DNA from: an uncultured Flavobacteriales bacterium
Lineage (GTDB): Bacteria; Bacteroidota; Bacteroidia; Flavobacteriales_D; Crocinitomicaceae
DNA: 64,000 nt
Assembly (NCBI GenBank): GCA_913054135.1
Contig: CAJXJK010000001.1
Location: 186,001-250,000, forward strand
Direction of reading: 5' to 3'
The notes below the pieces were generated by a model that was not told the DNA's origin, ran no database searches, and saw only the letters and a program-made list of their open reading frames with translations. This document shows, piece by piece, positions 1 through 42,671 of the stretch. The number at the start of each line of letters is the position of its first letter. Positions within the stretch are counted from its first letter, which is position 1. Position numbers and translations under genes: made by a program.

Positions 1-1117
1 GAGGATCAGCCTCTATAAGTTTTATTTGAGAAACTAGATCTTGAACGTCCTCTGGCTCAAATGACCAACCACATTTCCCCTCTTTAATAAAAAGATCTTT
101 GGCTTCACCTTTAACTCCTAACAAAATAGGTTTCTCCATTGCCAGAACTTCAAATATTTTAGAAGGAATTGCGCCCTCAAAAAGAGGTAAGTTTCTTAGC
201 GGAATAAGTGAAATATCAACTTCTTTAATGACACTTGCCACCTCTGTTCTACCCACAGGGTCGGCAAAAATAACGTTTGACGCATCAAGCTTTTGAGCAA
301 GAGCAACTAAGTCTTCTTTTAATGGCCCGCTCCCCATTATAACAAATTTGAATTTTGGATTTGACTTCACCTCTACGGCTGCCTTTATAATAACTTCTAA
401 ACCTTGAGCATGACCTAAAATTCCGCCATAAAAGAAGACAAAATCATCTTCTATAATCCCATATTTGGATCTAAAACCATATTCTGAAACAGAATCAGGC
501 TTAATGGCATCTGCATCAACACCATTGGGCAACCAATAAACATCCTTATCAGAGAATCGCTTGCGAATATCAGCAACAATACCTTGCGTTTGACCGGTAA
601 TTAGAGTAGACTTTTTGTAGCATTTCGCCTCTAATTTGTAAGCCATGTTCAGAAACATTTTATTAGAAACCAAACCAAGTTTCTCTGCTGATTCAGGCCA
701 AAGGTCAGAAACATTAAAAATAAGTTTAGCATTAAGTTTCTTGGCCAATTTCATAGCTGAATATCCTAAAAAAAGAGGTGGAGACTCTACTATGATAAAA
801 TCGAAATCATCAAGTTTTTTCCCCGCTTTATAAGAGCTTCTCACGAACGAAAAATAATTCATAAGTCTCTTAGCGATCCCTTTGCTCTTAGTGACATAAA
901 TACTAGACCTGTGGACAGTTAATCCATCCATTGTCTCCGTCATAGTTTTCTTCCCCTTGTACTCTTCAAAGACCTCCATCTTAGGGTAGTTAGGCATAGC
1001 GGTCAAAATTTCTACATCTAACCCATACTTTTTTAGTCGAATAGCAAGTTCGAAAAGCCGATTTTGTGGAGCACCAGTCTCAGGCGGGAAGTACTGTGTC
1101 AGAATTAGAAGTCTCAT
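1..1117 (-). CDS. GT4-family glycosyltransferase, WbuB-like (partial, 3' end off window)
   Basis: This open frame starts at an ATG at 1117 and reads leftward without a stop to base 1, so the C-terminal end is missing. Seen: the N-terminus MRLLILTQYFPPETGAP, then a PNYPK stretch, SDLWPESAEKLGL near the middle, and a GSGPLKEDL/EGAIPSKIFE donor-binding half. These are typical of WbuB/WcaI-type retaining GT4 enzymes with two Rossmann folds, which move a sugar from a nucleotide donor onto a lipid-linked oligosaccharide at the inner face of the membrane. The start lies inside the 3' end of the next upstream gene (38-base overlap), which suggests translational coupling with the O-antigen ligase-like gene. 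The sugar specificity cannot be told. Confidence 0.85.
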   Translation of the reverse strand, partial: MRLLILTQYFPPETGAPQNRLFELAIRLKKYGLDVEILTAMPNYPKMEVFEEYKGKKTMTETMDGLTVHRSSIYVTKSKGIAKRLMNYFSFVRSSYKAGKKLDDFDFIIVESPPLFLGYSAMKLAKKLNAKLIFNVSDLWPESAEKLGLVSNKMFLNMAYKLEAKCYKKSTLITGQTQGIVADIRKRFSDKDVYWLPNGVDADAIKPDSVSEYGFRSKYGIIEDDFVFFYGGILGHAQGLEVIIKAAVEVKSNPKFKFVIMGSGPLKEDLVALAQKLDASNVIFADPVGRTEVASVIKEVDISLIPLRNLPLFEGAIPSKIFEVLAMEKPILLGVKGEAKDLFIKEGKCGWSFEPEDVQDLVSQIKLIEADP

Positions 1118-2333
1118 TGTTTGAATTTGAAAAATTTATTGAATTAAATATTGCGAAAAAGACGGCAAAAAACACAACTCCAGCCTGTGTTTCCAATACT
1201 GATTCAGTAAAAAAGAAAACACCACTAATAAGTGAGAAAATAAGATTAAAGTATTTCATTCGTTTCATTCGAATAAGAGCTTGAAGCAACATAATCGCAA
1301 TTGTCAATAAGCCCAAAACACCTAGTGCTACAGAAGTTTGTAAAAACTGATTGTGGGCGTTGAGATTTTGTCTGACAGCTTGATTAATACCGGCATCCTC
1401 ATATCTTTCTAGCAACTCATCTTGTACGTCTCCTGTACCAACACCAATCCAAAAGTTGTCTAAAAAGAGTGATGTTGACTCATTCCAAATCACAGTTCTA
1501 AGTGAAGTAGATTCGAGCCAAGTTTTCTCGGTATCGGTATCTACTCCTTCAACAAACTCCTGCACTCTAGACTGCACCAAATCAGACCCTTTGTAGATTA
1601 CGTAAGACCCTAGAATAGAACAGAATGTAAATAGTAAAAATAATATCCACTTTCTTTTTATCAACCAATAAATGAGCAAGGACAGAAATAAGATAGCCGA
1701 AGTGAGGATTCCTATTTTAGAGAGTAGCAGGATCGAAAAACCTGTAAAAATTAAGATTAGCGCCACATACACCCAACGTCTTTTGAACAAACCTAAGGCA
1801 CCATTGAAATAGTCTATCAGCAAAATTCCAATTCCGACATTCATATAGAATGCCAAATATGAGGGATGAATTTCTTTACTTAAATGGATGTAAAGTAATT
1901 GTCTGGTATCACAAGTGCAATAATAATTATTAGCACCAATAACGAGTAACCAAATAACACAGACCAACAATCCAGCTATAAAAGTAAGTAAGAGCATCTT
2001 GATCTGTTCGACCTTATAATTTGAAAACATTATAACTATCGGGATTATCGCGAGACTCATTTTAACCTCTAAATCAAAGCCTGCATTTGCCGAATTTTCT
2101 GACCACAAAACTCCAAGACAATAGAGGCCAAAAAATGCTATTGAGGTCATTAACCTCCAGTTGAACTTTAGCCTGTGCTTTTTATAAATGCCCATCACCA
2201 AAGACAATAAAACCCATAGGGCAATCGTAATTGGAATAAATCTTCGGTAAAATGGAAATTGAAACACAACCAGACAAAGTGCCAAGATTGACAAATTAGA
2301 AAGATTAATATATGTTTTCAATTTTTGGATCAA
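1080..2333 (-). CDS. O-antigen ligase/polymerase-like membrane protein (Wzy_C family)
   Basis: The 417-residue product is almost entirely hydrophobic, with about ten to twelve predicted membrane segments and one larger periplasmic loop around residues 225-320. That loop contains SLRTVIWNES and FWIGVGTGD, followed by NAHNQFLQTSVALG. This R...W...G.G...AHN pattern is the usual signature of the Wzy_C/O-antigen ligase family, which polymerises repeat units or transfers finished glycan to an acceptor in the periplasm. Ligase and polymerase cannot be separated by sequence alone. The gene is followed by, and overlaps, the WbuB-like glycosyltransferase. It is divergent from a second ligase-like gene at 2488, with 154 bases between them. 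Confidence 0.82.
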   Translation of the reverse strand: MIQKLKTYINLSNLSILALCLVVFQFPFYRRFIPITIALWVLLSLVMGIYKKHRLKFNWRLMTSIAFFGLYCLGVLWSENSANAGFDLEVKMSLAIIPIVIMFSNYKVEQIKMLLLTFIAGLLVCVIWLLVIGANNYYCTCDTRQLLYIHLSKEIHPSYLAFYMNVGIGILLIDYFNGALGLFKRRWVYVALILIFTGFSILLLSKIGILTSAILFLSLLIYWLIKRKWILFLLFTFCSILGSYVIYKGSDLVQSRVQEFVEGVDTDTEKTWLESTSLRTVIWNESTSLFLDNFWIGVGTGDVQDELLERYEDAGINQAVRQNLNAHNQFLQTSVALGVLGLLTIAIMLLQALIRMKRMKYFNLIFSLISGVFFFTESVLETQAGVVFFAVFFAIFNSINFSNSNNETSNSDTVLPA

Positions 2334-2487: not shown

Positions 2488-3900
2488 ATGACCAAACTAA
2501 TTTCTGAAAAAATTCTCACTCTGATTGGAGCATTCATTTTGGTCTCAATATTGTTTTTTCCTCCAATAAAAATCAGTAGTACTACGCCGGCACTAGAAAT
2601 TACGGATTTTCTTATTCCTGTGCTCGCAGGTATCGCCCTTTTGAAGCATAAAGATTGGAAAAACAAAAAGCTTATTTATTTGATTGCTGCTTTTGGAGCT
2701 TACATTCTCATATCTATTTTGGTGAATGGACGTTACAATCAAATTCGTGATTATTTTGAAATTGTCAAACTAATTAAGTTCGCATCCGTCATTGTGATCT
2801 TCAGTTTTATTAGTTCAATTGATTTCATAAAAAAACTGATTAAGCATGCCTTTATAATTCTTGTGATCTTCAATATTATCCATTTCATGGATTGGTTTGG
2901 ATTAAACGATTTTTTAAGTCAGTATTACCTGGGAGGATTTAGATACAGTGTTTTTGGTCTGGATTCAATTGGAACGCCAACAACAAAACGAATGCTTGGT
3001 TTTGTTGGAAACCCTAATGCGAATGCCATTGTATTTATGTTCTTCGTGATTTACTTCATACCAAAATCTGAGAGCCTAAAAAAAGCATTACCATGGATGG
3101 GTGTAGCTCTAATCATGATGTTCTTGTGTCAATCTAAAACGGCACTTGTATCTACAATACCCGTCATTTTAGCTTACGGCTATTTCCACTTTAAAGAGAA
3201 GACAAAAATCCTTGCTGTAATAGGAACTACCGTCATTTGCTTTTTCATCTCGTTCTTTATTTCTAAGTATTCTATATTTCCTGATGAGGCAGACAACCCA
3301 GAATATGTTGAATGCATTGAATGTCTTGATAACGTCAAGAATATTGATTGGTCAAATCTCGATACTACTACTGATACTTCGGGCGTATCATTCTCCACTG
3401 CAGAGGACTCTTTGGCCTATATAGACTCTTGTTTAGCTATTAAAAACAGTGGTCAAGAAACAACCTATTTGGAAACCATTGTTCATGGAGAGTTTCTCGG
3501 TGGTTCTTCAATGAAAGGTAGATATGAAATATGGAGGCATTTGTGGGCCATGATTAAGGACAAACCGATTTTTGGACATGCACCTTACAAGGAGTACTTC
3601 TATGAAAACGAACTGTATTTTGAAAATGAACTAATTTCAATGACTTGGCGCTATGGTTTTGTTGGATTAGGTATCTACCTCTCTATTCTTTTCTATTTGT
3701 TTAGACTGAGCTTAAAGAATAGACACCATGAAATGGGTATCAATTTATTTCTTTTGCTGATCGTAATACTAATGACCGGTTTAACCAATAACCCATTTGC
3801 GCACAAAACAGTAATTGTACTCTTTGCTCTTACCATTGGCCTGTTAATCAATACTACCAGAGAAGAGAAGAAAGAATCCCTTTCTGAGTCTGAAGATTAA
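2488..3900 (+). CDS. O-antigen ligase/polymerase-like membrane protein with Cys-containing loop
   Basis: The 470-residue protein has about ten membrane segments spread over residues 10-260 and 385-460. A large hydrophilic, presumably periplasmic, loop covers residues 262-385. In it, GGSSMKGRYEIWRHLW and KPIFGHAPYKEY fit the family pattern R...W...P.FG.. of Wzy_C O-antigen ligases/polymerases. The loop also carries CIEC (C276, C279) and C315, which could form a disulfide; this is unusual for the family as I know it. The gene is alone on its strand, divergent from the ligase-like gene at 1080-2333, and its stop lies 25 bases from that of the converging epimerase-like gene. Having two ligase-like proteins suggests one polymerises and the other transfers. 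Confidence 0.75.
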   Translation: MTKLISEKILTLIGAFILVSILFFPPIKISSTTPALEITDFLIPVLAGIALLKHKDWKNKKLIYLIAAFGAYILISILVNGRYNQIRDYFEIVKLIKFASVIVIFSFISSIDFIKKLIKHAFIILVIFNIIHFMDWFGLNDFLSQYYLGGFRYSVFGLDSIGTPTTKRMLGFVGNPNANAIVFMFFVIYFIPKSESLKKALPWMGVALIMMFLCQSKTALVSTIPVILAYGYFHFKEKTKILAVIGTTVICFFISFFISKYSIFPDEADNPEYVECIECLDNVKNIDWSNLDTTTDTSGVSFSTAEDSLAYIDSCLAIKNSGQETTYLETIVHGEFLGGSSMKGRYEIWRHLWAMIKDKPIFGHAPYKEYFYENELYFENELISMTWRYGFVGLGIYLSILFYLFRLSLKNRHHEMGINLFLLLIVILMTGLTNNPFAHKTVIVLFALTIGLLINTTREEKKESLSESED

Positions 3901-3925: not shown

Positions 3926-4987
3926 CTAGTATTGCCTAACAAAGTCGTCTTCAAAAAGACCGGCCATCTCTTCAAAGTACTCATCACCTGTCATAAGATA
4001 AAAGTGATGAAGTTGCTTACCATGAACTTCGTGATGATATGGACTTTGAACATCATGCTTAATGCAAAATAGACTCATGTCTCCTTCCATTCTATATCTA
4101 GAAATATTTGATTTAACGGTTGTTAAAGATGCCATTAATATCACTTTAGCCTCACGGCTTTTGGTGATTCTATAATAATCATAAACCCCATAAATTGCGA
4201 AGTTCATTCCGTTTAAAGTCATAGCCGGTATCTCTTCAGGATACTCTTCAAGCCAAAGCCCACCATCTTTATCTACACAAGACACCCAAGGTTTTGCATC
4301 ATTACCCTTGAGCGGTAAAAAGGACTGGAATATTCTTTTACTCATCTTCAAATACTGTTGATCACCTGTTTCTTCGTAGAGTCTAGTAAAAAAAGATAAG
4401 GCGATTCCCTGCGCCATTGAAGAATACCAGGGAGCGTTCAATGTCTCTTCTTCAATACCATGTAATGAAAAATCATAAGAATATGGAAAAAACATGGTGC
4501 TTTCTGTATTCAAGCTTAGGCCCTCTAATTTATCAGCAAGAACAAGTATTTGATCCATCAAGATCGTTTTTTTAGTATCGTGATATACATCTAAGATCTG
4601 CAGACCATATTCAGCAATTGAAACTGGGTGATAATGATTCATACCTTGGTAAAAATACATGGGAACACCGTTCACATCACAATCTCTCTTAAGACCGAAA
4701 ACACCATCATGTTCGACATAAGGTAAACTGTCATATGGTAAAATACTTATATCAAATTCTTGGTAAGAATATTCTGTTCCATTACAGCTATCTACTTGAC
4801 TGTAGGTTTGCGTAAGCAATTCATCAGGAACAACTAGAGAAGAGTCCACTATAAAAACAGTATCTACTTTGGTTATATTATCGGCGCAACCGCACATATC
4901 ACCAGAGCAACATGAGTTGAACACTTGAAAAATGAAAAGAAGGAGAAGCACACTAATCTTTCTTATAAACTTTATTTCAATCAACAT
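3926..4987 (-). CDS. D-glucuronyl C5-epimerase-like lipoprotein
   Basis: The 353-residue product begins with a hydrophobic signal (residues 10-24) ending in FNSC, a plausible lipobox with C26 as the lipidated residue. The rest resembles the C-terminal domain of heparosan glucuronate C5-epimerase (GLCE). Matching blocks are HPVSIAEYGL (120-129), SSMAQG (189-194), LWLEEYP (244-250), LNGMNFAIYGVYDYY (258-272) and SPYHHEVHGKQL (315-326). Animal GLCE has equivalent MAQG, EEYP, LNG and YHTTHINQL blocks. Known members flip glucuronate to iduronate within a finished polymer. The inference here is an envelope-anchored enzyme acting on a uronic-acid-containing exopolysaccharide; UDP-glucose dehydrogenase is encoded at 36317. 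A related (alpha/alpha)6-barrel lyase or hydrolase remains possible. Confidence 0.68.
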   Translation of the reverse strand: MLIEIKFIRKISVLLLLFIFQVFNSCCSGDMCGCADNITKVDTVFIVDSSLVVPDELLTQTYSQVDSCNGTEYSYQEFDISILPYDSLPYVEHDGVFGLKRDCDVNGVPMYFYQGMNHYHPVSIAEYGLQILDVYHDTKKTILMDQILVLADKLEGLSLNTESTMFFPYSYDFSLHGIEEETLNAPWYSSMAQGIALSFFTRLYEETGDQQYLKMSKRIFQSFLPLKGNDAKPWVSCVDKDGGLWLEEYPEEIPAMTLNGMNFAIYGVYDYYRITKSREAKVILMASLTTVKSNISRYRMEGDMSLFCIKHDVQSPYHHEVHGKQLHHFYLMTGDEYFEEMAGLFEDDFVRQY

Positions 4988-5225: not shown

Positions 5226-6335
5226 ATGCCAGTTAAAGTTTGCCATATTACTACCGTTCACAAACCTAACGATAATAGAATTTTCTATAAAGAGTGCATT
5301 AGTTTAAAGAATGCCGGTTATGACGTTTCTTTAATTGTCGCAGGACAAGAAGACCATGTTGTAGACGGGGTGAAAATTTATGGGATTAAAAAAGGAAAAA
5401 GTAGGCCATCAAGAATTTTTATCACTGCCTTTTTTCGAGCTTTCAGAAAGGCACTCTCTTTGAAATGCGAAGTTTACCACTTTCACGATACCGAGTTAAT
5501 ACCAGCTGGGTTAATGCTCAGAATATTAGGAAAAAAAGTAATCTATGATATTCACGAGAATAATCCTGCAGCACTTCTTTCAAGACCTTATCTCAAAATA
5601 AAATTTTTCAGAGTGATTCTTTCAAAAATGGTACATGTTTTTGAAAAGATTTCGGTTCCTTTTTTCAGTGCTATTATTACGGCAAGGCCTGACATCAGCT
5701 TACGTTTTAGAAAAAAGAAAAAATTTTTATTGCGTAATTTTCCAATTTTACCAGATCTCGATAATATTCCTGAATTAAATTATCAGAAAACCAAGAAAAG
5801 CGCAATTTATGTAGGAGGAATGTCTCAAATTCGAGGAACGAAAGAGCTTATTAGCGCTTTTGAGAACTTAGAGGATGTAGAGTTATGGTTGCTTGGGGGC
5901 TTTGATTCAAAAGCTTTTGAAAATGAATGCAAACAACTTGCGGGCTGGAAAAATGTCGTTTATTTTGGTTCTGTCGAGCCATTTGAAATCTTCTCTTATA
6001 TAAAAAATGCGGATTTAGGCATCATTACATTTCTTCCAAAACCAAACCATTTGACAACCTTAGCAACAAAGCCATTTGAATACATGGCTTGTGGACTCCC
6101 ACTTATAATGTCAGATTTTGAGTATTGGAAATCATTTTTTAAGGATAGTTCTGATTACGTAAATCCAGAGAACAGTGAAGAAATTGCCAATGCTATTAGA
6201 ACCTTAATAGGAGACCCTTCTCGCATGGCGAGAATGGCAGAAAAGAATAGCTCTTTATCAAAGAATGACTACAACTGGGATTCTGATTCAAGAAATCTAT
6301 TTGATTGTTACAATATTATATTGAAAAAAAAATGA
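5226..6335 (+). CDS. GT4-family glycosyltransferase
   Basis: The 369-residue product begins VCHITTVHKPNDNRIF, the N-terminal pattern of GT4 enzymes of the EpsD/WbnH kind. It continues with YHFHDTELI and VIYDIHEN (acceptor domain), then SAIYVGGMSQIRGTKEL at the start of the second Rossmann domain. The block TKPFEYMACGLPLI (about residues 282-295) is the donor-sugar phosphate site. It should act at the cytoplasmic membrane face to extend the repeat unit. Its stop overlaps the start of the UDP-GlcNAc 2-epimerase gene by the ATGA arrangement, so the two are probably translated together. Confidence 0.85.
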   Translation: MPVKVCHITTVHKPNDNRIFYKECISLKNAGYDVSLIVAGQEDHVVDGVKIYGIKKGKSRPSRIFITAFFRAFRKALSLKCEVYHFHDTELIPAGLMLRILGKKVIYDIHENNPAALLSRPYLKIKFFRVILSKMVHVFEKISVPFFSAIITARPDISLRFRKKKKFLLRNFPILPDLDNIPELNYQKTKKSAIYVGGMSQIRGTKELISAFENLEDVELWLLGGFDSKAFENECKQLAGWKNVVYFGSVEPFEIFSYIKNADLGIITFLPKPNHLTTLATKPFEYMACGLPLIMSDFEYWKSFFKDSSDYVNPENSEEIANAIRTLIGDPSRMARMAEKNSSLSKNDYNWDSDSRNLFDCYNIILKKK

Positions 6336-7426
6336 GAAAGAAAGTACTTGTAGTAGTTGGTACACGACCAAACTTCATTAAAGTGACTCAATTTAGAAAG
6401 GTTGCTCAAATGTATGACCAATTTGATTTGAAGATATTACATACCGGCCAACATTACGATCATAAAATGTCATCTGTATTCTTTGAACAATTTGATCTCC
6501 GTCCTGACGATATTTTCGATTTAAAATCAAAGACACCTGCATCACAAATAGCTGAAATCATAACAAAACTAGAAGAATATTGTTTAGAATTCAAACCTGA
6601 TTTAATAATGGTTCCTGGAGATGTGAACTCGACTCTAGCCACTGCTATTTGCGCCAATAAACTAAACATTAAATTGGCTCACATTGAAAGCGGATTGCGA
6701 AGCTTTGATAACGAAATGCCAGAAGAGAACAATCGTATTCTCACCGATTTGATTTCTGATTATCTATTAGTAACCGAGCAAAGTGGCTTAGACAATCTAA
6801 GCAATGAAAAAAAATCAAAGAATAAAATTCACTTCGTCGGAAACACAATGATTGATACTATTGTGGCTTTCACGGATAAAATTGATTCTTCTGAAATCTT
6901 AGCTCGACTAGAACTAGAAGAAAAAAAGTTTGTGCTACTAACAATGCACAGGCCTTCAAATGTGGACAATGAAGAGGGTCTCCTTAAATTATGTAAAACT
7001 ATTGAAGGCATTACCAAGCACTTCAAAATTGTATTCCCAATTCACCCAAGAACTTTGAATCGAGCAGCAGAATTCGGATTGGTTGACAGATTGACAAATA
7101 ACCCCAAACTTGTTATCACAGATCCGTTGGATTACTTTTCATTTCAAAAGCTTATCAAAACATCATTTTTAGTGTTAACTGATAGTGGAGGAATACAAGA
7201 AGAAACCACTTTTTATCAAGTTCCTTGCTTAACCGCGAGAAACAACACAGAGCGACCTTCTACTATAACAGAAGGGACAAATGAACTCATTAAATTTGAA
7301 CCTGATCTAATCTTAACAAAATTGAAGGATGCGATTAATGGAAATATTAAATCAGGGAAAATCCCTCAATATTGGGATGGCCAGGCAACAAAAAGAATTT
7401 TTGAAGTGCTAAATAAAACACTGTAA
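6332..7426 (+). CDS. wecB: Non-hydrolysing UDP-GlcNAc 2-epimerase (WecB/WbpI type)
   Basis: The start is taken as the ATG at 6332, which overlaps the previous stop (ATGA) and directly precedes KKVLVVVGTRPNFIKV, the universal N-terminus of the family. An upstream in-frame TTG at 6305 is less likely. Other family blocks are GQHYDHKMS, PGDVNSTLA, HIESGLRSFDNEMPEE and TDSGGIQEE near residue 290. The enzyme interconverts UDP-GlcNAc and UDP-ManNAc through a 2-acetamidoglucal intermediate. WbpI homologues instead act on UDP-GlcNAc(3NAc)A. Since genes for that acid are present at 35182-41581, WbpI function is a real alternative. The gene ends directly against a converging gene with no spacer. Confidence 0.85.
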   Translation: MRKKVLVVVGTRPNFIKVTQFRKVAQMYDQFDLKILHTGQHYDHKMSSVFFEQFDLRPDDIFDLKSKTPASQIAEIITKLEEYCLEFKPDLIMVPGDVNSTLATAICANKLNIKLAHIESGLRSFDNEMPEENNRILTDLISDYLLVTEQSGLDNLSNEKKSKNKIHFVGNTMIDTIVAFTDKIDSSEILARLELEEKKFVLLTMHRPSNVDNEEGLLKLCKTIEGITKHFKIVFPIHPRTLNRAAEFGLVDRLTNNPKLVITDPLDYFSFQKLIKTSFLVLTDSGGIQEETTFYQVPCLTARNNTERPSTITEGTNELIKFEPDLILTKLKDAINGNIKSGKIPQYWDGQATKRIFEVLNKTL

Positions 7427-8458
7427 TTAGTTCTTTAACAAAGATTTGTAGATTTTAAGAAACTTTTCTCGACTAACATCTTTGGTTGCAAGTTTCATTA
7501 CAATTTCTTTATTCATTTCAATGACCTTAAGCCCATCCATTTCAGTAGCTCTATTCAAAGCGGTCAAAAGACTATCTTTTACTAGCACTCCATTTTGACC
7601 GTCTTTGACCCATTCTCGATTTGCCGGCAAGTCACTAGCAACAGGAATACAACCGTACCCCATAGCCTCTAATAAACTTATTGAAGTACCATCACTTGAA
7701 GGTATTGAAACCCAGATTTTGGCTTTTAAATAGTAATCTTTATTTGTTTCAGAATCCACGAAACCTATAAATTCAATTTGAGAATTTCCGGAGTTCTCTG
7801 CTGTTTTCTTCAATTCTTCTGTGCGAGCACCATTAGCTCCAATCACTAATTTCCAATCTGGATTGGTTTGCGAAAATTGAAGGAAAGTCTTTAAGATAGT
7901 GTCAATATTATAAAGATCGTGATGGAGTCGATTAGAATAAATTATTTTCTCTTTAACTGGGATCTGTACATCCTCGTAATCTATCCCAAAATTCACCAAT
8001 ACGACCTTTGACTTAGGATCTAACTTTTGAATAGCCTCAATCATGAACTTAGCATCAGCCGTGATAGAATCTGCATTTCTTAATACAAATTTCACCAACC
8101 AATGAAAAAAACGACTTCTCTTTGGCAGCAACAATACATCACTTCCCCAAGTCGTCAAAACCAATGGCACCCTATTCTTGTTTGCCTTTATGGCTAATAG
8201 AGCGCAAGAATTAGCTTGATGTACATGAATGAAATCAGGATTAAACTCTGCAATCAACTTTCTTATGACTTTGATTTTTTTTGGTATCGTTTGAGGTTTT
8301 TTTATCGAAAAATCAACGACCGCACCTCTAGCAAATGTCACCTCTTGTTCTGAAATCACAAAAACCTCTTCAAATTCATCAACGATTAAATTATAGTAAT
8401 TTTGAAGATGTACAGAACCGGCACTTGGTCCAATTAAAAGAAGTTTTTTATTTTTCAT
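7427..8458 (-). CDS. GT4-family glycosyltransferase
   Basis: The 343-residue protein starts KKLLLIGPSAGSVHLQNYY and has PDFIHVHQANSCALLA and LVLTTWGSDVLLLP in the N-terminal half. The C-terminal half contains KLVIGANGARTEEL, IEFIGFVDSETNKDYY and SIPSSDGTSISLLEAMGYG, the last being the EX7E-like donor block of GT4 retaining enzymes. It is probably another step in assembling the repeat unit. It lies downstream of a methyltransferase and flippase on the same strand, with 12 bases between it and the methyltransferase, so the three likely form one operon. Sugar specificity is unknown. Confidence 0.85.
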   Translation of the reverse strand: MKNKKLLLIGPSAGSVHLQNYYNLIVDEFEEVFVISEQEVTFARGAVVDFSIKKPQTIPKKIKVIRKLIAEFNPDFIHVHQANSCALLAIKANKNRVPLVLTTWGSDVLLLPKRSRFFHWLVKFVLRNADSITADAKFMIEAIQKLDPKSKVVLVNFGIDYEDVQIPVKEKIIYSNRLHHDLYNIDTILKTFLQFSQTNPDWKLVIGANGARTEELKKTAENSGNSQIEFIGFVDSETNKDYYLKAKIWVSIPSSDGTSISLLEAMGYGCIPVASDLPANREWVKDGQNGVLVKDSLLTALNRATEMDGLKVIEMNKEIVMKLATKDVSREKFLKIYKSLLKN

Positions 8459-8470: not shown

Positions 8471-9136
8471 CTACGCTTTTAACTCGAAAAAGTAAAAGTC
8501 TGACACAAAAGGTTTGATTTTTCCTTGATATTTATTCTCAATAAATTTGTTCAACTCAAATCTTGGATAGTTTTTTTCAACCCAGTTTGTAAACTTTCTA
8601 TGCTTGATATATGTCGTGTCTTTATCGGTAGAATCATAATTTGTAGAAAAAATCAAAACACTACTTTCAGCTGAATCGAACAACCTCTTCATGTAGAGAT
8701 CAAAAACACTGTCTTCAACTAAGCAGTAAACAACATCTAGGCTTAATGTCAGATCAGCCTTCTCCTGTTTATATTCATCAAAATGTCTAAATATTTTTGA
8801 ATCATCCCCTTTGAACTTTTCCTTACAAAGGTCAACCGCGGCCTGACTGATCTCATATCCTGTAAATTTTTCTATCTCAAAATAACTCAATTGGTTGCCG
8901 TCTCCACAACTCATTTCAATAATTGATTTGAATCCTTTTGAAGAAACGTATTCATTGATCACTTCTGCCTTATAAATAGCAAGTTCATCATAGGACCCGA
9001 CTCCAGAATTGCCTCCCGAACTGTAACGTTCTTTCCAGTATTCTTCAGAAGATTCAAAGTCTTTTGCTCTTTGCTTTTTCTTCCATTTTACAGCTAAGGG
9101 GCCAATTATTGGAATTTTCTTAATTAACTTCTTCAT
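8471..9136 (-). CDS. Class I SAM-dependent methyltransferase
   Basis: The ATG at 9136 (MKKLIKKIPIIGPL) is preferred over an in-frame TTG at 9163. The 221-residue protein has SSEEYWKERYSSGGNSGVGS near the N-terminus, a pattern common in polysaccharide-locus methyltransferases. Then comes SIIEMSCGDGNQLSYFE, the SAM-binding motif I with GDG, and LTLSLDVVYCLVED as motif II/post-I. The C-terminal part covers SSVLIFSTNYD and ends in FFELKA. It probably methylates a sugar or glycan end. It lies between the flippase (36 bases upstream) and a glycosyltransferase (12 bases downstream). Confidence 0.78.
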   Translation of the reverse strand: MKKLIKKIPIIGPLAVKWKKKQRAKDFESSEEYWKERYSSGGNSGVGSYDELAIYKAEVINEYVSSKGFKSIIEMSCGDGNQLSYFEIEKFTGYEISQAAVDLCKEKFKGDDSKIFRHFDEYKQEKADLTLSLDVVYCLVEDSVFDLYMKRLFDSAESSVLIFSTNYDSTDKDTTYIKHRKFTNWVEKNYPRFELNKFIENKYQGKIKPFVSDFYFFELKA

Positions 9137-9172
9137 ATAAAAACGACCAATTTTAGTCTTCAAATTTAAGGT

Positions 9173-10549
9173 TTATATTGAACTATCCCGGGCTTTTAGC
9201 GTCTCTCTTGTCAACTTCAATGCCCAGAAGTATGCGTAAGTGTAAAAGAGAATTTGAATACTTGATAAAATCAAGAACCCTGTTGTGAGATCTTTAAAAA
9301 AGATACCACCTACCAAAATCGACCCAAGTATGATGACATTATGAATCATTGATATTATGAAATACTGCCCTTGTTTATTCAGGATTACAGAAACTTGAAG
9401 GACAGGTGCTATTGCAAAACTCAGATATAACCAAGGTGTCAAGTACTGAGCATACTCTCCTGCAACTCTCCATTTTTCTCCTAATACGAATTCAAATAAT
9501 GGAGGACCGAATAAAATAATGACTAAAAAAATTGGCGCCCCAATCAGAAGCATCTTCTTAACGGTTGATTTAATAAGTGGGATGAAGTTCTGCTCGTTTG
9601 CGTGCATTTCAGCCGCTTTTTGAAAAAACACCTGAGCAAATGAATTTCCAATCACAGAAAGAGGAGCCCTTAATACTCGAACTGTCATTCCATAAAAACC
9701 AAGAATTGCTTCATTAAAAGCATATAATATAGTAGATGTCACCCCAATATTTTTTAGTTCATCAAGCACTCCATGGACACTGTTAATTTTCGGAAACTTG
9801 TCATGTATTTTGGCCTGCTCTTTCATTCTCTTCCATGACACCTCTTTAAATAATACTTTGTCTTTTTTCAAAAACGGAAACAAGAAAACTAAGGTCCCTA
9901 AGAAAAAGCCAAGGGTAAAACTTAAAATAAGGGCTCCAACACCAATGTGAGTTATACCTGATGGATTTCCATGAGCCTTACTGAATATTGATTTGAAGAA
10001 CTTAACGATTCCTTCTTTGGCAGTAAATACATTGTATTTCTGTAAACCACCTACCATTTGAACCGCAACTCTACCTGTGGTTTGAACAACCACTGAAACA
10101 GAAGTCCCTTTGAATCTTTTATGCCTATTGCTCCAGAAAGTAAAAATCTTATATGCACTGCCGAAGAACACTGTTACCGGTATAAGCCACAGCCATGACG
10201 ACAATCCATCAACAGAAATCAGGTCGGCTAAAACATTGCCGAACACTAAAAAGACAATCAATAGAATAGACACAAAAACTGAAAGTATTGCAAAGCAAAG
10301 TGCCAAAATGTTAATTGCGTCCTTATCCTCCTTAGGTAACACAATTGCCTGCTCATATCTGCCGGCCGCAATTACTAACAAGAATGTCACAATTGACATG
10401 TAAAAAGTATAGGCCCCAAACTCTTCAGGAGAAAATAGTCGAGTTAAAACAGGGGTTAAAGCAATGGGCAAAATCTGCGCAAGGGTAGAACCAGTCATCA
10501 AGGTGAGGACATTCTTGCCAAATTCAGATTTTACAATTCTTTTTTTCAT
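9173..10549 (-). CDS. Wzx-type polysaccharide flippase (MOP/PST superfamily)
   Basis: The ATG at 10549 (MKKRIVKSEFGKNVLTL) is taken as start; an upstream TTG at 10576 is in frame. The product has about 12 membrane segments over roughly 458 residues. The N-terminal block LTLMTGSTLAQILPIALTPV is typical of Wzx/RfbX flippases, as is RLFSPEEFGAYTFY just after it. Such proteins move undecaprenyl-diphosphate-linked repeat units across the inner membrane, before polymerisation by a Wzy protein; two candidates for that lie at 1080 and 2488. It heads an apparent three-gene operon with the methyltransferase and the glycosyltransferase. A TATCTTTA sequence upstream on this strand may be the -7 box. Confidence 0.85.
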   Translation of the reverse strand: MKKRIVKSEFGKNVLTLMTGSTLAQILPIALTPVLTRLFSPEEFGAYTFYMSIVTFLLVIAAGRYEQAIVLPKEDKDAINILALCFAILSVFVSILLIVFLVFGNVLADLISVDGLSSWLWLIPVTVFFGSAYKIFTFWSNRHKRFKGTSVSVVVQTTGRVAVQMVGGLQKYNVFTAKEGIVKFFKSIFSKAHGNPSGITHIGVGALILSFTLGFFLGTLVFLFPFLKKDKVLFKEVSWKRMKEQAKIHDKFPKINSVHGVLDELKNIGVTSTILYAFNEAILGFYGMTVRVLRAPLSVIGNSFAQVFFQKAAEMHANEQNFIPLIKSTVKKMLLIGAPIFLVIILFGPPLFEFVLGEKWRVAGEYAQYLTPWLYLSFAIAPVLQVSVILNKQGQYFIISMIHNVIILGSILVGGIFFKDLTTGFLILSSIQILFYTYAYFWALKLTRETLKARDSSI

Positions 10550-10711
10550 TATTAAATCTTGGTGGTGAGTCACCAATCTGTAAAGATAGATGAATTGCAG
10601 CTCAGAGAAAATGAGAATAACAATAAGTACGAACAGCTAAAAAAGGAAAACTTTTGACTTTTGTCATTTTCTGTTTGCCGATTAATCTATATCCTTGTTG
10701 CTGCTAAGCAA

Positions 10712-35181: not shown

Positions 35182-36315
35182 ATGAAGCAAATTCAGATGG
35201 TCGACTTGAAATCTCAGTATGAGAAAATCAAAGGAGAAGTTGACAAAGCAACAGTTGAGGTAATTTCTTCTTCGGCGTACATAAATGGACCCGAAGTTAA
35301 AGCCTTTCAGACAGAACTAGAATCTTACCTAGGAGTAAAGCATGTTATACCTTGTGCTAACGGAACTGATGCTCTACAAATCGCGTTAATGTCCCTTGGT
35401 CTTGAACCTGGTGATGAAGTAATAACTTCAGACTTTACTTTTGCTGCAACTGTTGAGGTGGTTGGATTATTGAGATTAAAACACGTATTGGTTGATGTTG
35501 ACCCCGATACTTTTAGCATCTCGTTAGAAGCTATCAAAGCAGCCATCACTCCAAAAACCAAAGCAATAATACCTGTTCACTTATTTGGTCAATGTGCCCA
35601 AATGGATGAAATCATGGAAATCGCGAATGAACATGGAATTCATGTAATCGAAGATAATGCCCAAGCAATTGGTGCAGATTACACTTCAAAGGATGGTAGT
35701 ACTAAGAAGGCTGGCACAATTGGAAAAGTTGGAACCACGTCTTTCTTTCCTTCAAAAAATCTTGGGTGTTATGGAGATGGTGGAGCACTTTTTACGAATG
35801 ATGATGAATTAGCTGAAATAATCAGATCTATTGTCAATCATGGAATGGGTAAGAGATATTACTATGATAGACTTGGAGTGAACTCAAGACTAGATTCTAT
35901 TCAAGCAGCTGTACTGAGAATCAAACTGCGAAAGCTTGATGAGTATATTGCAAATAGACAGTCGGCTGCGACTTTTTACAACCAAGCCTTATCTGCTCAC
36001 GCTAGAATCTCAACTCCGGCTGTACATCCTCAATCAACTCATGTCTTTCATCAGTATACAATGAAAATTGACGGAATTGACCAATTTCACATGCAAGAGT
36101 TTATGAAGTCAAAAGGGATTCCGGCAATGATTTATTACCCTATGCCGCTTCACACACAAGAAGCATATGATGCAGAGAGATACAATGATGATGACTTTGA
36201 AATCACGAACATGCTTTGCAAATGCGTGATATCACTACCAATGCATACAGAATTAGAAAATGATCAGCTTAAGTTTATCACGGATGCTGTTTTAGAATAT
36301 TTAGAAAAAAATTAG
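35182..36315 (+). CDS. DegT/DnrJ/EryC1-family sugar aminotransferase (WbpE-like)
   Basis: The 377-residue protein starts KQIQMVDLKSQYEKIKGEVD. HVIPCANGTDALQIALMSLG, VIEDNAQAIGA and TTSFFPSKNLGCYGDGGAL (PLP-binding Lys in PSKNLG) define the PLP-dependent nucleotide-sugar aminotransferase family. The N-terminal and DKATV patterns resemble WbpE/WlbC, which convert UDP-3-keto-GlcNAcA to UDP-GlcNAc3NA. The presence of the dehydrogenase and acetyltransferase for this route at 38631-40246 supports that. It is the first gene of a tight operon, the next starting 1 base after its stop. Confidence 0.88.
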   Translation: MKQIQMVDLKSQYEKIKGEVDKATVEVISSSAYINGPEVKAFQTELESYLGVKHVIPCANGTDALQIALMSLGLEPGDEVITSDFTFAATVEVVGLLRLKHVLVDVDPDTFSISLEAIKAAITPKTKAIIPVHLFGQCAQMDEIMEIANEHGIHVIEDNAQAIGADYTSKDGSTKKAGTIGKVGTTSFFPSKNLGCYGDGGALFTNDDELAEIIRSIVNHGMGKRYYYDRLGVNSRLDSIQAAVLRIKLRKLDEYIANRQSAATFYNQALSAHARISTPAVHPQSTHVFHQYTMKIDGIDQFHMQEFMKSKGIPAMIYYPMPLHTQEAYDAERYNDDDFEITNMLCKCVISLPMHTELENDQLKFITDAVLEYLEKN

Positions 36316-36316
36316 A

Positions 36317-37630
36317 ATGAAAAGAATTGCAGTAATTGGCTCAGGCTATGTAGGTCTAGTTTCAGGAACATGTTTTGCAGAAACCGGTAATAATGTAATT
36401 TGCGTTGACATTGACGAAAACAAAGTGAATAAAATGAAAGCTGGAGAGGTTCCGATTTACGAACCGCATCTAGATGTAATTTTTGAAAGAAATATCAAGC
36501 AAGGAAGACTAACCTTTACTACTGACTTAAAGGCTGCCGTTGACGCGTCTGAAATCATCTTTCTGGCTTTACCCACTCCTCCTGGAGAAGATGGATCAGC
36601 TGATCTTTCTTACGTATTAGGGGTAGCTGAAGAATTGGGTAAAATCATTACGGATTATAAAGTCATTGTAGACAAATCAACAGTGCCAGTTGGAACAGCT
36701 GAACAAGTTCATGCTGCCGTAGCTAAAAATGCGAAAGTGGATTTTGATATCGTCTCAAATCCTGAATTTTTAAGAGAAGGATTCGCAGTAGATGACTTCT
36801 TAAAACCTGACAGAGTAGTCATTGGAGCGAGTTCAGACAGAGCTAGAACAATGATGAGAGAGCTATACAAACCTTTCGTTCGCCAAGGAAACCCAATCAT
36901 CTTTATGGATGAGAAATCAGCTGAGCTTACAAAATATGCAGCAAACTCATTTTTGGCAACGAAAATTACTTTCATGAATGAGATAGCTAACTTTTGTGAA
37001 AAAGTTGGGGCGAATGTTGATGACGTAAGAATAGGAATGGGATCAGATACAAGAATCGGAAAGAGATTTTTATTCCCAGGTATTGGATTTGGTGGATCAT
37101 GTTTCCCGAAAGACGTTCAAGCACTCGTAAAATCTGGAAACGAAGCAAACTATAGATTTTCAATTATTGATGCTGTTTTAGATGTAAACCATAAACAGAA
37201 ATTCAAATTAATTGAAAAAGTTAAAAATCACTACGGAGATTTAAATGGAAAGAATTTTGGACTTTGGGGGCTTGCTTTCAAACCAGACACAGATGATATT
37301 AGAGAAGCCCCAGCACTATATATGATTGACGCATTACTCGAAGCAGGTGCTTCAATCACAGCATATGATCCTGAAGCAATGGAAAATGTTCAAGAATTAT
37401 ATGGTGATAAAGTGAGATTTGCAGAGAATGCTTATGAGGCTATAGCCAATAAAGACGCACTTTTAATTGCTACTGAATGGGGCGCATTCAGAAATCCGGA
37501 TTTCGAAAAAATCCTAGATTCATTAGTGGAGCCTAAAATCTTTGACGGAAGAAACTTATTTGATCTAGAAGAGATGGAAGGAAAAGGATTTTATTATGAA
37601 AGTATAGGAAGAAGAACAGTATTAGGATAA
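36317..37630 (+). CDS. ugd: UDP-glucose 6-dehydrogenase
   Basis: The 437-residue protein has the NAD-binding start [21 protein letters not shown], the substrate region [31 protein letters not shown], and the catalytic Cys block [13 protein letters not shown]. The C-terminal part has [16 protein letters not shown]. It oxidises UDP-glucose to UDP-glucuronate with two NAD. Its ATG follows the aminotransferase by one base and its stop overlaps the next start. UDP-GlcA is used by the decarboxylase that follows, and may also supply glucuronate for the polymer acted on by the epimerase-like protein at 3926. Confidence 0.95.
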
Positions 37631-38622
37631 TGGCCGAAAGAAAAAAAATATTGATTACCGGAGCTGCAGGATTTTTAGGTTCGCACCTCTGTGATAGGTT
37701 TATCAAAGACGACTATCATGTGATCGCAATGGATAATTTGATTACAGGTAGACTCAAAAATATTGAGCACCTTTTCAAATTAGAGAATTTCGAATTCTAC
37801 CATCATGATGTTAGCACATTTATTAATGTGCCAGGTAAATTGGATTACATTTTACATTTTGCTTCACCAGCAAGCCCAATCGATTATTTAAAAATCCCCA
37901 TTCAAACATTGAAGGTAGGGTCTTTAGGAATTCACAATTGTTTAGGTCTTGCAAAAGCAAAAGATGCAACATTAATGATTGCTTCTACATCTGAAGTTTA
38001 TGGTGACCCTGAAGTTCATCCTCAAACCGAAGACTATTGGGGGCATGTGAATCCTATAGGTCCTAGAGGTGTTTATGATGAGGCAAAAAGATTTCAAGAG
38101 GCCATGACTATGGCGTATCACACATACCACAAAGTAGACACGAGAATTATTCGAATCTTCAATACTTACGGACCTAGAATGAGATTAAATGATGGGCGAG
38201 TTTTACCAGCCTTCATAGGACAAGCTTTGAGAGGAGAAGATTTAACTGTTTTTGGAGATGGCTCTCAAACAAGATCCTTTTGCTATGTCGACGACTTAGT
38301 TGAAGGTATTGTGAGATTACTTCATTCAGGATATCACCAACCGGTCAATATCGGAAATCCAGATGAAATTTCAATTGGTGATTTTGCTGAAGAAATTATT
38401 GAATTAACAGGAACTGATCAAAAGGTCATCTACAAAGACTTACCGGTCAATGACCCTAAACAAAGACAACCAGACATCAGTCGTGCTATTGAAATACTTG
38501 ACTGGAAACCTTCTATTGACAGAGCCGAAGGCTTAAAGCGCACTTATGCTTACTTCAAGAGCTTGACAGAAGAAGAGTTGAATGAGAAAGATCATTACAA
38601 TTTCGATAAGTATATTAAATAA
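37630..38622 (+). CDS. uxs: UDP-glucuronate decarboxylase (UDP-xylose synthase)
   Basis: The 330-residue protein is an extended [23 protein letters not shown] (NAD site) and [32 protein letters not shown] and [17 protein letters not shown] hold the Ser/Thr-Tyr-Lys catalytic set, and [20 protein letters not shown] is near the C-terminus. The [10 protein letters not shown] sequence is diagnostic of UDP-xylose synthase. It converts UDP-GlcA to UDP-xylose and CO2. The start codon overlaps the ugd stop by one base (TAATG), so coupling is expected. Confidence 0.93.
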
Positions 38623-38630
38623 GTTCAATT

Positions 38631-39203
38631 ATGAGTGACTTTTTTGCCCATGAAACGGCTGTTATTGATGAGGGATGCACGATTGGTGAAGGAACCAAGA
38701 TTTGGCACTTCTCTCACATTATGCCGAATTGCACAATTGGAAGCAAATGTAATATTGGTCAAAATGTTGTCGTTTCACCTGAAGTGATATTGGGTAATAA
38801 TGTCAAAGTTCAAAACAACGTTTCTATTTATACCGGCGTGGAATGTGCTGATGATGTTTTTTTAGGACCTTCAATGGTATTCACGAATGTCATGAATCCA
38901 AGATCTGCTGTTAATCGCAGAGACCAATATTTAAAGACAAAAGTAGGTGTCGGAGCGAGCATTGGTGCAAATGCAACAATAGTATGTGGAAACCCTATCG
39001 GAAAATTTGCGTTTATAGGTGCCGGGGCCGTGGTCACAAAAGAAGTTCTTGATTATGCTTTGTTGGTAGGAAACCCTGCAAAGCAAATTGGATGGATGAG
39101 TGAATTCGGTCACCGACTTAATTTTGATAATAACAACTTTGCAACCTGCCCTGAGTCAGGTGATAAGTATGAACTATCTGATAACCAAGTTAAAAAAGTA
39201 TAA
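38631..39203 (+). CDS. Left-handed beta-helix N-acetyltransferase (WbpD/WlbB-like)
   Basis: The 190-residue protein has hexapeptide repeats: TIGEGTKIWHFSHIMPNC, IGSKCNIGQNVVVSPEVI and LGNNVKVQNNVSIYTGVEC, then VGVGASIGANATIVCGNPIG. The combination matches WbpD/WlbB, which acetylate the 3-amino group of UDP-GlcNAc3NA using acetyl-CoA. The C-terminal tail TCPESGDKYELS is typical. The gene starts 8 bases after uxs and its stop overlaps the next start. Confidence 0.9.
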   Translation: MSDFFAHETAVIDEGCTIGEGTKIWHFSHIMPNCTIGSKCNIGQNVVVSPEVILGNNVKVQNNVSIYTGVECADDVFLGPSMVFTNVMNPRSAVNRRDQYLKTKVGVGASIGANATIVCGNPIGKFAFIGAGAVVTKEVLDYALLVGNPAKQIGWMSEFGHRLNFDNNNFATCPESGDKYELSDNQVKKV

Positions 39204-40246
39204 TGTCTGAAGATAAAAAAGTAAAATTTGCTGTAATCGGTTGTGGCCATATCGGAAAACGACACGCTACTATGGTTACAAGAAATGAAGAGTCAGAATT
39301 AGTAGGCTTGGTGGACACTGCTGACAAAGGGAATTTGGACCTTGAAGAATTTCAAGGCGTGCCTTTTTTCAATTCAATTGACGACTTACTTGCTGCCGGG
39401 ATTGACATTGATGTTGTTTGTATTTGCACTCCAAACGGAAAACATTCAGATCAAGCAAAGAAAGCACTAGCTAAAGGGCACCACGTAGTTTGTGAAAAAC
39501 CAATGGGACTTTCTAAAGACAATTGTGAAAGTGTAATTTACACAGCCCTTCAAAATTCAAAGCAAGTTTTTTGTGTAATGCAAAACAGATATTCACCACC
39601 CTCTGAATGGATTAAGGATGTGATTAGCAAAAAATTAATGGGTGAAATCTATATGGTGCAACTCAATTGTTACTGGAATAGAGATGACAGATATTATAAA
39701 GCTGGAGGCTGGAAAGGAACTCAAGAACTTGACGGAGGTACCTTGTTCACACAATTCTCTCACTTCATTGATATCATGTACTGGTTATTTGGTGACGTGA
39801 AAAACATACAAGGTAAATTTGCAGACTTCAGTCATAAGGACTCTACAGACTTTGAAGATTCAGGATTCGTTTCTTTCGACTTTGTGAATGGTGGAATGGG
39901 CTCACTAAACTATTCAACCTCAGTTTGGAATCAGAATTTAGAAAGCTCAATGACCATCATTGGTGAGAAAGGTTCTGTGAAAATAGGAGGTCAATACATG
40001 AATGAGATTGAGGTGTGCAATATTGAAGATTATGAAATGCCAGAATTGGCGGCTTCAAACCCGGCTAATGACTATGGATCTTATAAAGGATCTGCTGCAA
40101 ATCATCACTACATCATTGAAAATGTGGTCGATTCTCTAAAAAAGAGAACAGCACCCACAACAAACGCTCTCGAAGGGCTTAAAGTTGTTGAGATAATTGA
40201 ACGTATTTACGAAGTGAGAGATGCTCACTTCAATAAAAAAAACTAA
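39203..40246 (+). CDS. Gfo/Idh/MocA oxidoreductase, UDP-GlcNAcA 3-dehydrogenase (WlbA/WbpB-like)
   Basis: The 347-residue protein has KFAVIGCGHIGKRHATMV at the NAD site. CICTPNGKHSDQAKKAL and HVVCEKPMGLSKDNCE (with the catalytic Lys of EKP) follow, and GGWKGTQELDGGTLFTQFSHF is the Gfo/Idh C-terminal substrate motif. WlbA/WbpB oxidises the C3 hydroxyl of UDP-GlcNAcA, giving the keto sugar that the aminotransferase at 35182 would use. The start overlaps the acetyltransferase stop by one base (TAATG). Confidence 0.88.
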   Translation: MSEDKKVKFAVIGCGHIGKRHATMVTRNEESELVGLVDTADKGNLDLEEFQGVPFFNSIDDLLAAGIDIDVVCICTPNGKHSDQAKKALAKGHHVVCEKPMGLSKDNCESVIYTALQNSKQVFCVMQNRYSPPSEWIKDVISKKLMGEIYMVQLNCYWNRDDRYYKAGGWKGTQELDGGTLFTQFSHFIDIMYWLFGDVKNIQGKFADFSHKDSTDFEDSGFVSFDFVNGGMGSLNYSTSVWNQNLESSMTIIGEKGSVKIGGQYMNEIEVCNIEDYEMPELAASNPANDYGSYKGSAANHHYIIENVVDSLKKRTAPTTNALEGLKVVEIIERIYEVRDAHFNKKN

Positions 40247-40248
40247 TT

Positions 40249-40262
40249 GGTACTTTTGTACC
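40249..40262 (+). promoter_or_regulatory. Possible internal promoter -7 box inside an inverted repeat
   Basis: GGTAC-TTTT-GTACC is a perfect 5-base inverted repeat with a four-T loop. It includes TACTTTTG (40251-40258), an exact TANNTTTG match, 21 bases before the ATG at 40280. No TTTG is present upstream at normal spacing. It could provide an extra promoter for the last two sugar genes. Confidence 0.35.
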
Positions 40263-40279
40263 GAAAAAATTCTTAAGAA

Positions 40280-41581: not shown

Positions 41582-41624
41582 GCTTTCTTAACAAATAGTC
41601 TTTAATTTTTGACGTTATATAGGT

Positions 41625-42671
41625 ATGAAGAAGAAAATTCTTATCACTGGAGGAGCAGGTTTTATTGGCTCTCATCTTGTAAGACTCTTTGTCAATAAAT
41701 ATCCTGATTATGACATCATCAATTTGGATAAATTGACCTATGCCGGTAATCTCAAAAACATCACAGATATTGAGAATTCTGCGAATTACAAATTTGTAAA
41801 AGGTGATATTCAAGACAAAGATTTCTTAGACTCACTTTTTAAATCTGAAAAAATAACTGATGTTATTCACCTAGCGGCAGAATCGCATGTTGATAGATCA
41901 ATTTCAGGACCAATGGAATTCATCATAACAAACATTGTAGGAACTGCTAATCTATTAGAAGTTGCCCGTTCAAATTGGGAAGGTGAAGACCACACATTTT
42001 ATCATATTTCTACTGACGAAGTTTATGGTTCTTTAGGAGAAGAAGGCTTCTTTTATGAAGACACTGCTTACGATCCTAGAAGCCCATATTCAGCTTCAAA
42101 AGCATCTTCTGATCACTTGGTAAGGGCTTATCATCACACTTATAATTTCCCTATCAAAATTTCGAACTGTTCTAATAATTATGGCTCACATCAATTTCCC
42201 GAAAAGTTGATTCCGCTTATGATTAATAACATTCGAAACAATAAACCACTACCCGTTTACGGAACTGGAGAAAACGTTAGAGATTGGCTTTGGGTTGAAG
42301 ATCATGCGAGAGCGATTGATGTAATTTTTCATAAAGGAAAAGTGGGAGAAACTTACAACATTGGTGGCTGGAACGAGTGGACAAACATTGCTTTGGTAAA
42401 AGAAATGTGCCGTATCATGGATGAAAAATTGGGCAGAGATACAGGTACATCTGAAAAACTAATCACATACGTTACAGATAGAGCGGGCCATGATATGCGT
42501 TATGCAATTGATGCCACAAAAATCAAAGACGAATTGGGATGGGTGCCTTCTTTAGAATTTGAAGAAGGCCTAGACAAAACAATCGACTGGTATTTGAATA
42601 ATGAAGATTGGATAAATAATGTCACTTCTGGCGATTACCAAAAGTATTATGATGAGCACTACTCATCATAA
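41625..42671 (+). CDS. rfbB: dTDP-glucose 4,6-dehydratase
   Basis: The 348-residue SDR has KILITGGAGFIGSHLVR, HLAAESHVDRSISGP, YHISTDEVYGSLG, PRSPYSASKASSDHLVRAYHH (YxxxK pair) and NNYGSHQFPEKLIP. Also VRDWLWVEDHARA. These are specific for RmlB/RfbB, which makes dTDP-4-keto-6-deoxyglucose, precursor of rhamnose and other deoxysugars. No rmlA, rmlC or rmlD is visible in the window, so the final sugar cannot be named. Its 3' end overlaps the converging gene by 13 bases. Confidence 0.94.
   Translation: MKKKILITGGAGFIGSHLVRLFVNKYPDYDIINLDKLTYAGNLKNITDIENSANYKFVKGDIQDKDFLDSLFKSEKITDVIHLAAESHVDRSISGPMEFIITNIVGTANLLEVARSNWEGEDHTFYHISTDEVYGSLGEEGFFYEDTAYDPRSPYSASKASSDHLVRAYHHTYNFPIKISNCSNNYGSHQFPEKLIPLMINNIRNNKPLPVYGTGENVRDWLWVEDHARAIDVIFHKGKVGETYNIGGWNEWTNIALVKEMCRIMDEKLGRDTGTSEKLITYVTDRAGHDMRYAIDATKIKDELGWVPSLEFEEGLDKTIDWYLNNEDWINNVTSGDYQKYYDEHYSS

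Follow-up and report, generated by a model that had tools for sequence, protein, structure and literature searches.

A helical-domain relative of glucuronyl C5-epimerase with an altered active site in a Wzx/Wzy polysaccharide locus of an uncultured Flavobacteriales bacterium

Introduction

The closest described relatives of the protein reported here are the human and zebrafish glucuronyl C5-epimerases, GLCE (PDB 6hzz, 6i01, 4pw2). GLCE architecture includes a beta-hairpin and a beta-sandwich besides the helical domain, and the key residues of the human enzyme are E499, Y500, N510, Y560 and Y578 (PMC13308652); a review names Tyr578 and Glu499 as the acid/base pair (PMC12834895). Among bacteria, RED65_08024 of Bermanella marisrubri is described as a GLCE homolog (PMC4432689, PMC12834895, PMC13308652), with reported glucuronyl C5-epimerase activity (PMC4432689, PMC12834895) and an alignment suggesting a GLCE-like mechanism (PMC13308652). 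We liken our protein to it by description only, and two of the tyrosines are changed in ours. The archaeal C5-epimerase Agl32 of Halobacterium also consists of a single helical domain with neither beta-sandwich nor beta-hairpin, but is reported to have no GLCE residues at the corresponding positions (PMC13308652), whereas Glu499, Tyr500 and Asn510 are kept here. Histidine takes part in uronate C5 epimerization in DS-epimerase 1 (dermatan sulfate; H205, Y261, H450, Y473; PMC13308652). That enzyme has another domain arrangement, and the likeness is limited to the idea of histidine as acid/base. The literature that we searched, largely without subscription papers, yielded no Bacteroidota lipoprotein C5-epimerase.

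The window analyzed in this study is a stretch of 64,000 nucleotides from an uncultured Flavobacteriales bacterium (assembly GCA_913054135.1, contig CAJXJK010000001.1, positions 186,001 to 250,000). It encodes a genuine homolog of GLCE whose active site is unexpected, in a locus of the type that such an enzyme would suit. Shared with GLCE are the C5-epim_C domain, the fold, the WYSxMAQG, EEYP and LNG blocks, and the equivalents of Glu499, Tyr500 and Asn510. Unlike GLCE, the protein is bacterial, has a lipobox-like N-terminus and lacks the beta-hairpin and beta-sandwich, and its equivalents of Tyr560 and Tyr578 are Phe and His.

Domain Family and Predicted Fold

An earlier reading of the sequence alone (the original prediction) placed a GLCE-like lipoprotein gene at 3926-4987. 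Those coordinates are correct and the strand is minus; the plus strand over the same interval is full of stops.

3926-4987, minus strand: C5-epimerase-like gene of a putative lipoprotein, 353 aa, ATG start at 4987
3956-4489, minus strand: C5-epim_C domain, residues 167-344 (Pfam match)

The protein is a member of Pfam domain family PF06662 (C5-epim_C). The profile search suggested with the original prediction gave an E-value of 1.6e-32 and 112.9 bits (curated cut-off 23.3) across nearly the whole profile (positions 5-185 of 188). When the 353-aa sequence was used as a phmmer query against the PDB, human GLCE 6hzz was matched at 1.6e-9 and zebrafish 4pw2 at 8.7e-9; a profile built from 12 relatives reached 6hzz at 1.7e-24, with GH76 as the next family at 1.5e-6. 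Homology to PF06662 is thus far beyond chance, and the predicted likeness to the C-terminal domain of GLCE is borne out. The blocks WYSSMAQG, EEYP and LNG are conserved in alignments with relatives. No NCBIfam model matched the protein.

AlphaFold was run on two small alignments, of 3 and 7 rows; the better of the two models has a mean pLDDT of 66.8 and a pTM of 0.71. With this predicted model, the top 8 Foldseek rows were GLCE chains (E 7e-6 to 3e-5), followed by GH76 at 3e-4. Human and zebrafish GLCE were also the closest folds by VIA-align, with Z about 22 (6hzz: Z 22.3, rmsd 3.5, 252 aligned residues), ahead of cellobiose 2-epimerase (Z 15.7) and GH76-like chains (about 15). The part aligned with 6hzz begins at residue 81 and is preceded by low-confidence coil and the signal helix. 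The model contains only a few short strands, and the N-terminal beta-hairpin and central beta-sandwich domains are absent from it; the protein is a helical (alpha/alpha) domain only, and 353 aa leave no space for the other two. Structure prediction therefore upholds the GLCE fold, while the model is too weak at residues 301-313 (pLDDT <50) to compare the tyrosine sites or to fix where H318 lies.

It is highly improbable that the protein is an (alpha/alpha)6 glycoside hydrolase or a polysaccharide lyase misread as an epimerase. Weak likenesses exist: GH127 in Pfam (7e-4; 19 bits against a cut-off of 24.9) and GH88 (13 bits against 26.6) both fall below threshold, and GH76, which has no Pfam match up to E 1, is reached by the clade profile and by structure at Z about 15 and lower. 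A better match of this kind was sought with Pfam, the PDB profile search, Foldseek and VIA-align. GLCE came out ahead in all four: its E-value in the profile search was lower by some 18 orders of magnitude, and in structure it reached Z 22 against 15.7 or less.

Active-Site Residues

The residues of the window protein that correspond to those listed for human GLCE are as follows.

4241-4246, minus strand: E248-Y249, equivalents of human Glu499-Tyr500 (PDB phmmer and alignments)
4211-4213, minus strand: N259, equivalent of human Asn510 (PDB phmmer and alignments)
4067-4069, minus strand: F307, codon TTT, in the human Tyr560 column (codons and alignments)
4034-4039, minus strand: Y317-H318, codons TAT CAT, with H318 in the human Tyr578 column and Y317 one residue earlier (codons and alignments)

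By sequence alignment, E248, Y249 and N259 are kept, and Tyr560 and Tyr578 are replaced by F307 and H318. Loss of the catalytic tyrosines on structural alignment was named with the original prediction as evidence against it; on sequence alignment, two of the three, Y560 and Y578, are lost, with Y500 retained as Y249. Hidden Markov models from 11 and from 35 relatives, both excluding the window protein, run gapless through F307 and H318, and the posterior mark there is the highest. An alignment of 12 rows from the clade to which the window protein belongs is likewise gapless at H318, and 11 of its 12 rows have both tyrosines, the window being the exception. Because neither the models nor this alignment needs a gap, we take H318 as the equivalent of Tyr578.

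Two other explanations of these residues are less favored. A general MAFFT run set Y317 as the catalytic tyrosine, with one inserted residue, and one relative, L015 (relatives and their loci are given by our handles), reads Y-H-I-E-T-H; the gapless models and 12-row alignment speak against this placement, but it is possible that Y317 could stand in for Tyr578 if the loop shifts by one. Each of the codons for F307 and H318 is one base from a Tyr codon, and two independent sequencing errors at these sites are unlikely.

The replaced positions are otherwise nearly invariant. Tyr occupies the 578 column in 70 of 71 distinct relatives (64 of 65 in a smaller set), the exception being Asp in L029, and the 560 column in 68 of 71 (62 of 65), where L039 and L040 have Phe and L029 has Ser. 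Glu is found in the 499 column of 70 of the 71. Among all 72 proteins, therefore, His in the Tyr578 column is seen only in the window, which is also one of four without Tyr at 560; the other three deviate elsewhere in the active site too. The structure alignment leaves out L102, L105, L106 and L108. L039 and L040 make up another set of proteins whose active site has changed: position 560 is Phe, 510 is Asp, and His is lacking at 582.

In the PDB alignment with the clade profile, the human substrate and product complexes 6i01 and 6i02 have Phe at 578, and Debarnot in 2019 reportedly found the GLCE variant with Phe at this position inactive. Because it lacks the accessory domains and two of the tyrosines listed as catalytic, we do not file the protein as a GLCE-type glucuronyl C5-epimerase, yet it may work like one.

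N-Terminus

Envelope anchoring of the protein is likely, judging from its N-terminal sequence.

4910-4987, minus strand: putative N-terminal signal, residues 1-26, ending in a lipobox-like FNSC with Cys26 (pattern and eye; Phe at -3 is atypical)

The lipoprotein signal of the original prediction is a candidate one: residues 1-26 include a hydrophobic stretch and close in VFNSC with Cys26, an atypical lipobox called by a simple pattern and by eye. Cleaner lipoboxes occur in several relatives (VLSC, LLSC, VLGC). The simple pattern labels 8 of 66 rows, window included, and by eye L034 (ISGC) and L003 (VAGC) can be added; L020, L023 and L111 have no lipobox by pattern or eye (L112 is masked in that alignment). 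Lipidation at Cys26 would leave the protein facing the periplasm or the cell surface.

The Polysaccharide Locus

The polysaccharide locus around the epimerase-like gene is of the Wzx/Wzy type and includes a priming transferase. Pfam confirmed the polymerase/flippase set named in the original prediction, finding two Wzy_C proteins and a Wzx flippase.

1080-2333, minus strand: Wzy_C-type polymerase/ligase A (Pfam)
2488-3900, plus strand: Wzy_C-type polymerase/ligase B (Pfam)
5226-6335, plus strand: GT4 glycosyltransferase (Pfam)
6305-7426, plus strand: UDP-sugar 2-epimerase, WbpI or WecB type (Pfam, NCBIfam; PDB 8sxv 246 bits, 4neq 252 bits)
7427-8458, minus strand: GT4 glycosyltransferase (Pfam)
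8471-9163, minus strand: methyltransferase-like, below the Pfam cut-off
9173-10576, minus strand: Wzx-type flippase (Pfam)

The sequence upstream of the window carries genes for a priming transferase (Bac_transf) and an aminotransferase (DegT), then a GT4-like ORF (labeled by eye). The epimerase-like gene is antiparallel to both of its neighbors (2488-3900 and 5226-6335) and so forms its own transcription unit, outside their operon. No heparosan synthase was recognized among the locus genes scanned by Pfam, the neighboring glycosyltransferases being GT4.

Sugar-Nucleotide Genes

The window holds a second sugar cluster at 35182-42671, with WbpE-, ugd-, UXS-, WbpD-, WbpB-, WbpA- and RmlB-like genes, apparently a supply of diacetamido-uronic acid, UDP-xylose and dTDP-sugars. 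A DUF2891 protein (437 bits) is encoded near it at 46270-47364.

35182-36315, plus strand: WbpE-like aminotransferase (best PDB match WbpE 3nyu)
36317-37630, plus strand: UDP-glucose 6-dehydrogenase-like, ugd (best PDB matches are UDP-glucose dehydrogenases)
38631-39203, plus strand: WbpD/WlbB-like N-acetyltransferase (PDB 3mqg)
39203-40246, plus strand: WbpB/WlbA-like 3-dehydrogenase (PDB 3q2i)
40280-41581, plus strand: UDP-GlcNAc 6-dehydrogenase-like, TviB/WbpA type (NF011729 507 bits, below the cut-off of 592)

We take chain 3mqg to be WlbB and chain 3q2i to be WlbA. The pathway to ManNAc3NAcA comprises five enzymes, WbpA, B, E, D and I (PMC10622841). Homologs of all five lie within the window, with the qualifications that the 2-epimerase, encoded 1.3 kb from the epimerase-like gene, matches WecB and WbpI types equally and that the WbpA-like protein is below its model cut-off and has no PDB match at 1e-60. 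The original prediction had joined the epimerase-like gene to ugd, which is in fact 31 kb away, in this other cluster.

Given the homologs of a diacetamido-uronic acid pathway in the window, a uronic acid other than GlcA is at least as likely the target, and we infer that the substrate could equally well be an amino-uronic acid or GlcA. The genome has no Sulfotransfer_3 domain and no heparinase II/III C-terminal (Hepar_II_III_C) domain.

Relatives and Their Loci

PF06662 is present as a single copy in this genome, in one of four genomes of the genus (the other three have no such gene), and in 32 of the 299 genomes sampled from the order. In a tree with 65 distinct relatives, the window protein pairs with that of L002, from a Flavobacteriales MAG (48% identity; support 90/81). 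The pair falls inside a 20-row clade (support 100/98) that holds all rows labeled lipobox; L003, from an archaeon, and eight proteins from IMG/VR also belong to it. A second tree, with 22 rows and the further members L111 and L112, does not resolve the finer branching. The end branch of the window protein (0.77; 0.61 in the second tree) is not longer than those of its neighbors, and thus gives no sign of decay.

Short members of this clade (L002, L018, L020/L023, L022, L034-L036, L054, L055, L111, L112 and archaeal L003) resemble the window protein in being lipobox-bearing or membrane-anchored, in having the helical domain only and in sharing the same conserved columns at roughly 30-48% identity. 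They differ from it in that all keep Tyr at 560 and 578 and in that most do not adjoin polysaccharide genes as far as tested.

Gene context was examined for 14 short-clade loci (window, L002, L003, L047, L048, L049, L054, L055, L056, L059, L060, L066, L118, L119), using 19 window proteins as phmmer references, a test that would miss unrelated glycosyltransferases. Four of the 14 are Wzx/Wzy loci: the window, L047, L118 and L119, the latter three from other families. The epimerase-like gene of L047 overlaps the flippase gene by 4 nt, and a WecB/WbpI homolog is encoded in the same locus. In L118 and L119 the gene is co-directional with glycosyltransferase, Wzy and flippase genes, with a priming transferase nearby; matched to the window proteins, their flippases and wzyA products reach 288/216 and 161/189 bits. 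A WbpP-like 4-epimerase (best match 1sb8) lies beside the L118 locus, and no WecB/WbpI homolog was found in the stretch seen of L118 or L119.

At the ten other loci, none of the other 18 reference proteins matched by phmmer. Pfam annotation of neighbors at these loci was partial (six ORFs for L002, one for L003, four for L048, one for L055, four for L056, three for L059, one for L060, and none for L049, L054 and L066) and returned housekeeping, transport or other unrelated genes. One weak GT4 match (32 bits) occurs in the stretch beside L056 (L070), at a distance of about 14 kb from the epimerase-like gene. At L048:6672-13165, and in the matching L049, the relative is flanked by genes for an FAD oxidoreductase and an FAD-linked oxidase, with a SusD-like gene close by; this is not a locus for polysaccharide synthesis, and another role is possible there.

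Proposed Function

Our main reading, to which we give a probability of about 0.5, is that of a C5-epimerase-type protein with the helical domain only, anchored in the envelope, whose target is a uronic acid in the local polysaccharide and whose active site is altered (Glu/His) or lost. The protein would act after export, on a uronic acid residue of the polymer made by the locus. E248 would stand on one face of the ring, with H318 (or Y317) taking the part of Tyr578 on the opposite face, the C5 proton being removed and returned between them; histidine is able to act as an acid/base. Should neither H318 nor Y317 serve, the window copy would be a sugar-binding pseudoenzyme. The reading is weakened because the acid/base Tyr578 is replaced (the human complexes were solved with Phe there), because no polysaccharide genes were seen, within the limits of the test, at ten of the 14 clade loci, because the gene lies outside its neighbors' operon and is absent from three other genomes of the genus, and because the structural model is weak. 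A narrower form of it must be called speculative and improbable: a polymer-level epimerase that works at the envelope with Glu/His instead of Glu/Tyr and whose substrate is an amino-uronic acid (ManNAc3NAcA, for instance), so that residues of L-configured diacetamido-uronic acid arise once the polymer is assembled.

Loss of both tyrosines suggests a catalytically dead paralog, kept as a uronate-binding envelope protein or in the process of being lost, and to this we assign a minority share of the probability, though a substantial one. The histidine unique among 72 proteins, the further active-site deviations of the other three proteins without Tyr560, and a single copy patchily distributed in the genus agree with it; an intact ORF, the retention of the other conserved blocks, a branch of ordinary length and a histidine competent as acid/base, with a tyrosine at -1, do not. 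An active glucuronyl C5-epimerase making iduronate in a GAG-like exopolysaccharide, as originally predicted, is improbable. It draws on the PF06662 domain and GLCE fold, on a ugd-like gene in the genome and on the Bermanella precedent, and is opposed by the replacements at Y560 and Y578, by the distance of ugd, which stands beside UXS-, WbpA-, WbpB-, WbpD- and WbpE-like genes, and by the lack of a recognized heparosan synthase among the locus genes scanned by Pfam and of a Sulfotransfer_3 domain in the genome. With diacetamido-uronic acid pathway homologs in the window as well, the iduronate/GAG reading has no support beyond homology.

Regarding the target, our main reading leaves the substrate free and so overlaps with a proposal to which we give about the same minority probability as to a dead copy: the substrate would be an amino-uronic acid, and an enzyme of this clade might turn ManNAc3NAcA, for example, into the diacetamido-guluronic acid that is its C5 epimer. 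The five pathway homologs, one of them 1.3 kb away, and the sugar-nucleotide genes at L047 and L118 speak for this, whereas the equal closeness of the 2-epimerase to a UDP-GlcNAc enzyme (4neq), the low score of the WbpA-like protein and the lack of a WecB/WbpI homolog in the L118 and L119 stretches speak against it. We know of no member of the family shown to carry out this conversion. It is unlikely that the protein works alone in the envelope on uronans of foreign or nutrient origin, with its position in a polysaccharide locus incidental: ten of 14 clade loci without polysaccharide genes, as far as tested, and the surroundings of the L048 gene would fit, but the remaining four have homologous Wzx/Wzy partners, one with the flippase overlap.

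An envelope-anchored, helical-domain-only clade found partly in Wzx/Wzy loci would carry post-polymerization C5-epimerization into bacterial surface sugars, and the natural Tyr to His change at the catalytic acid/base position offers a ready-made test of the GLCE mechanism. If the amino-uronate Glu/His reading is true, it would represent a polymer-level route to L-configured diacetamido-uronic acids; if only the window copy is dead, it cautions against naming a product from a Pfam match.

Viral-Collection and Archaeal Members

Eight IMG/VR (viral-collection) contigs, L101-L108, encode C5-epim_C relatives, all within the short clade; none of them is among the proteins found to depart from Tyr in the 560 or 578 column. 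Four of them (L101, L103, L104 and L107, read in frame) have an extra C-terminal region of >100 residues after the C5-epim_C domain. The archaeal member (L003:9635-10711), from the haloarchaeon Halegenticoccus tardaugens, has a lipobox-like N-terminus and sits in a clade mostly of Bacteroidota, possibly as a result of gene transfer.
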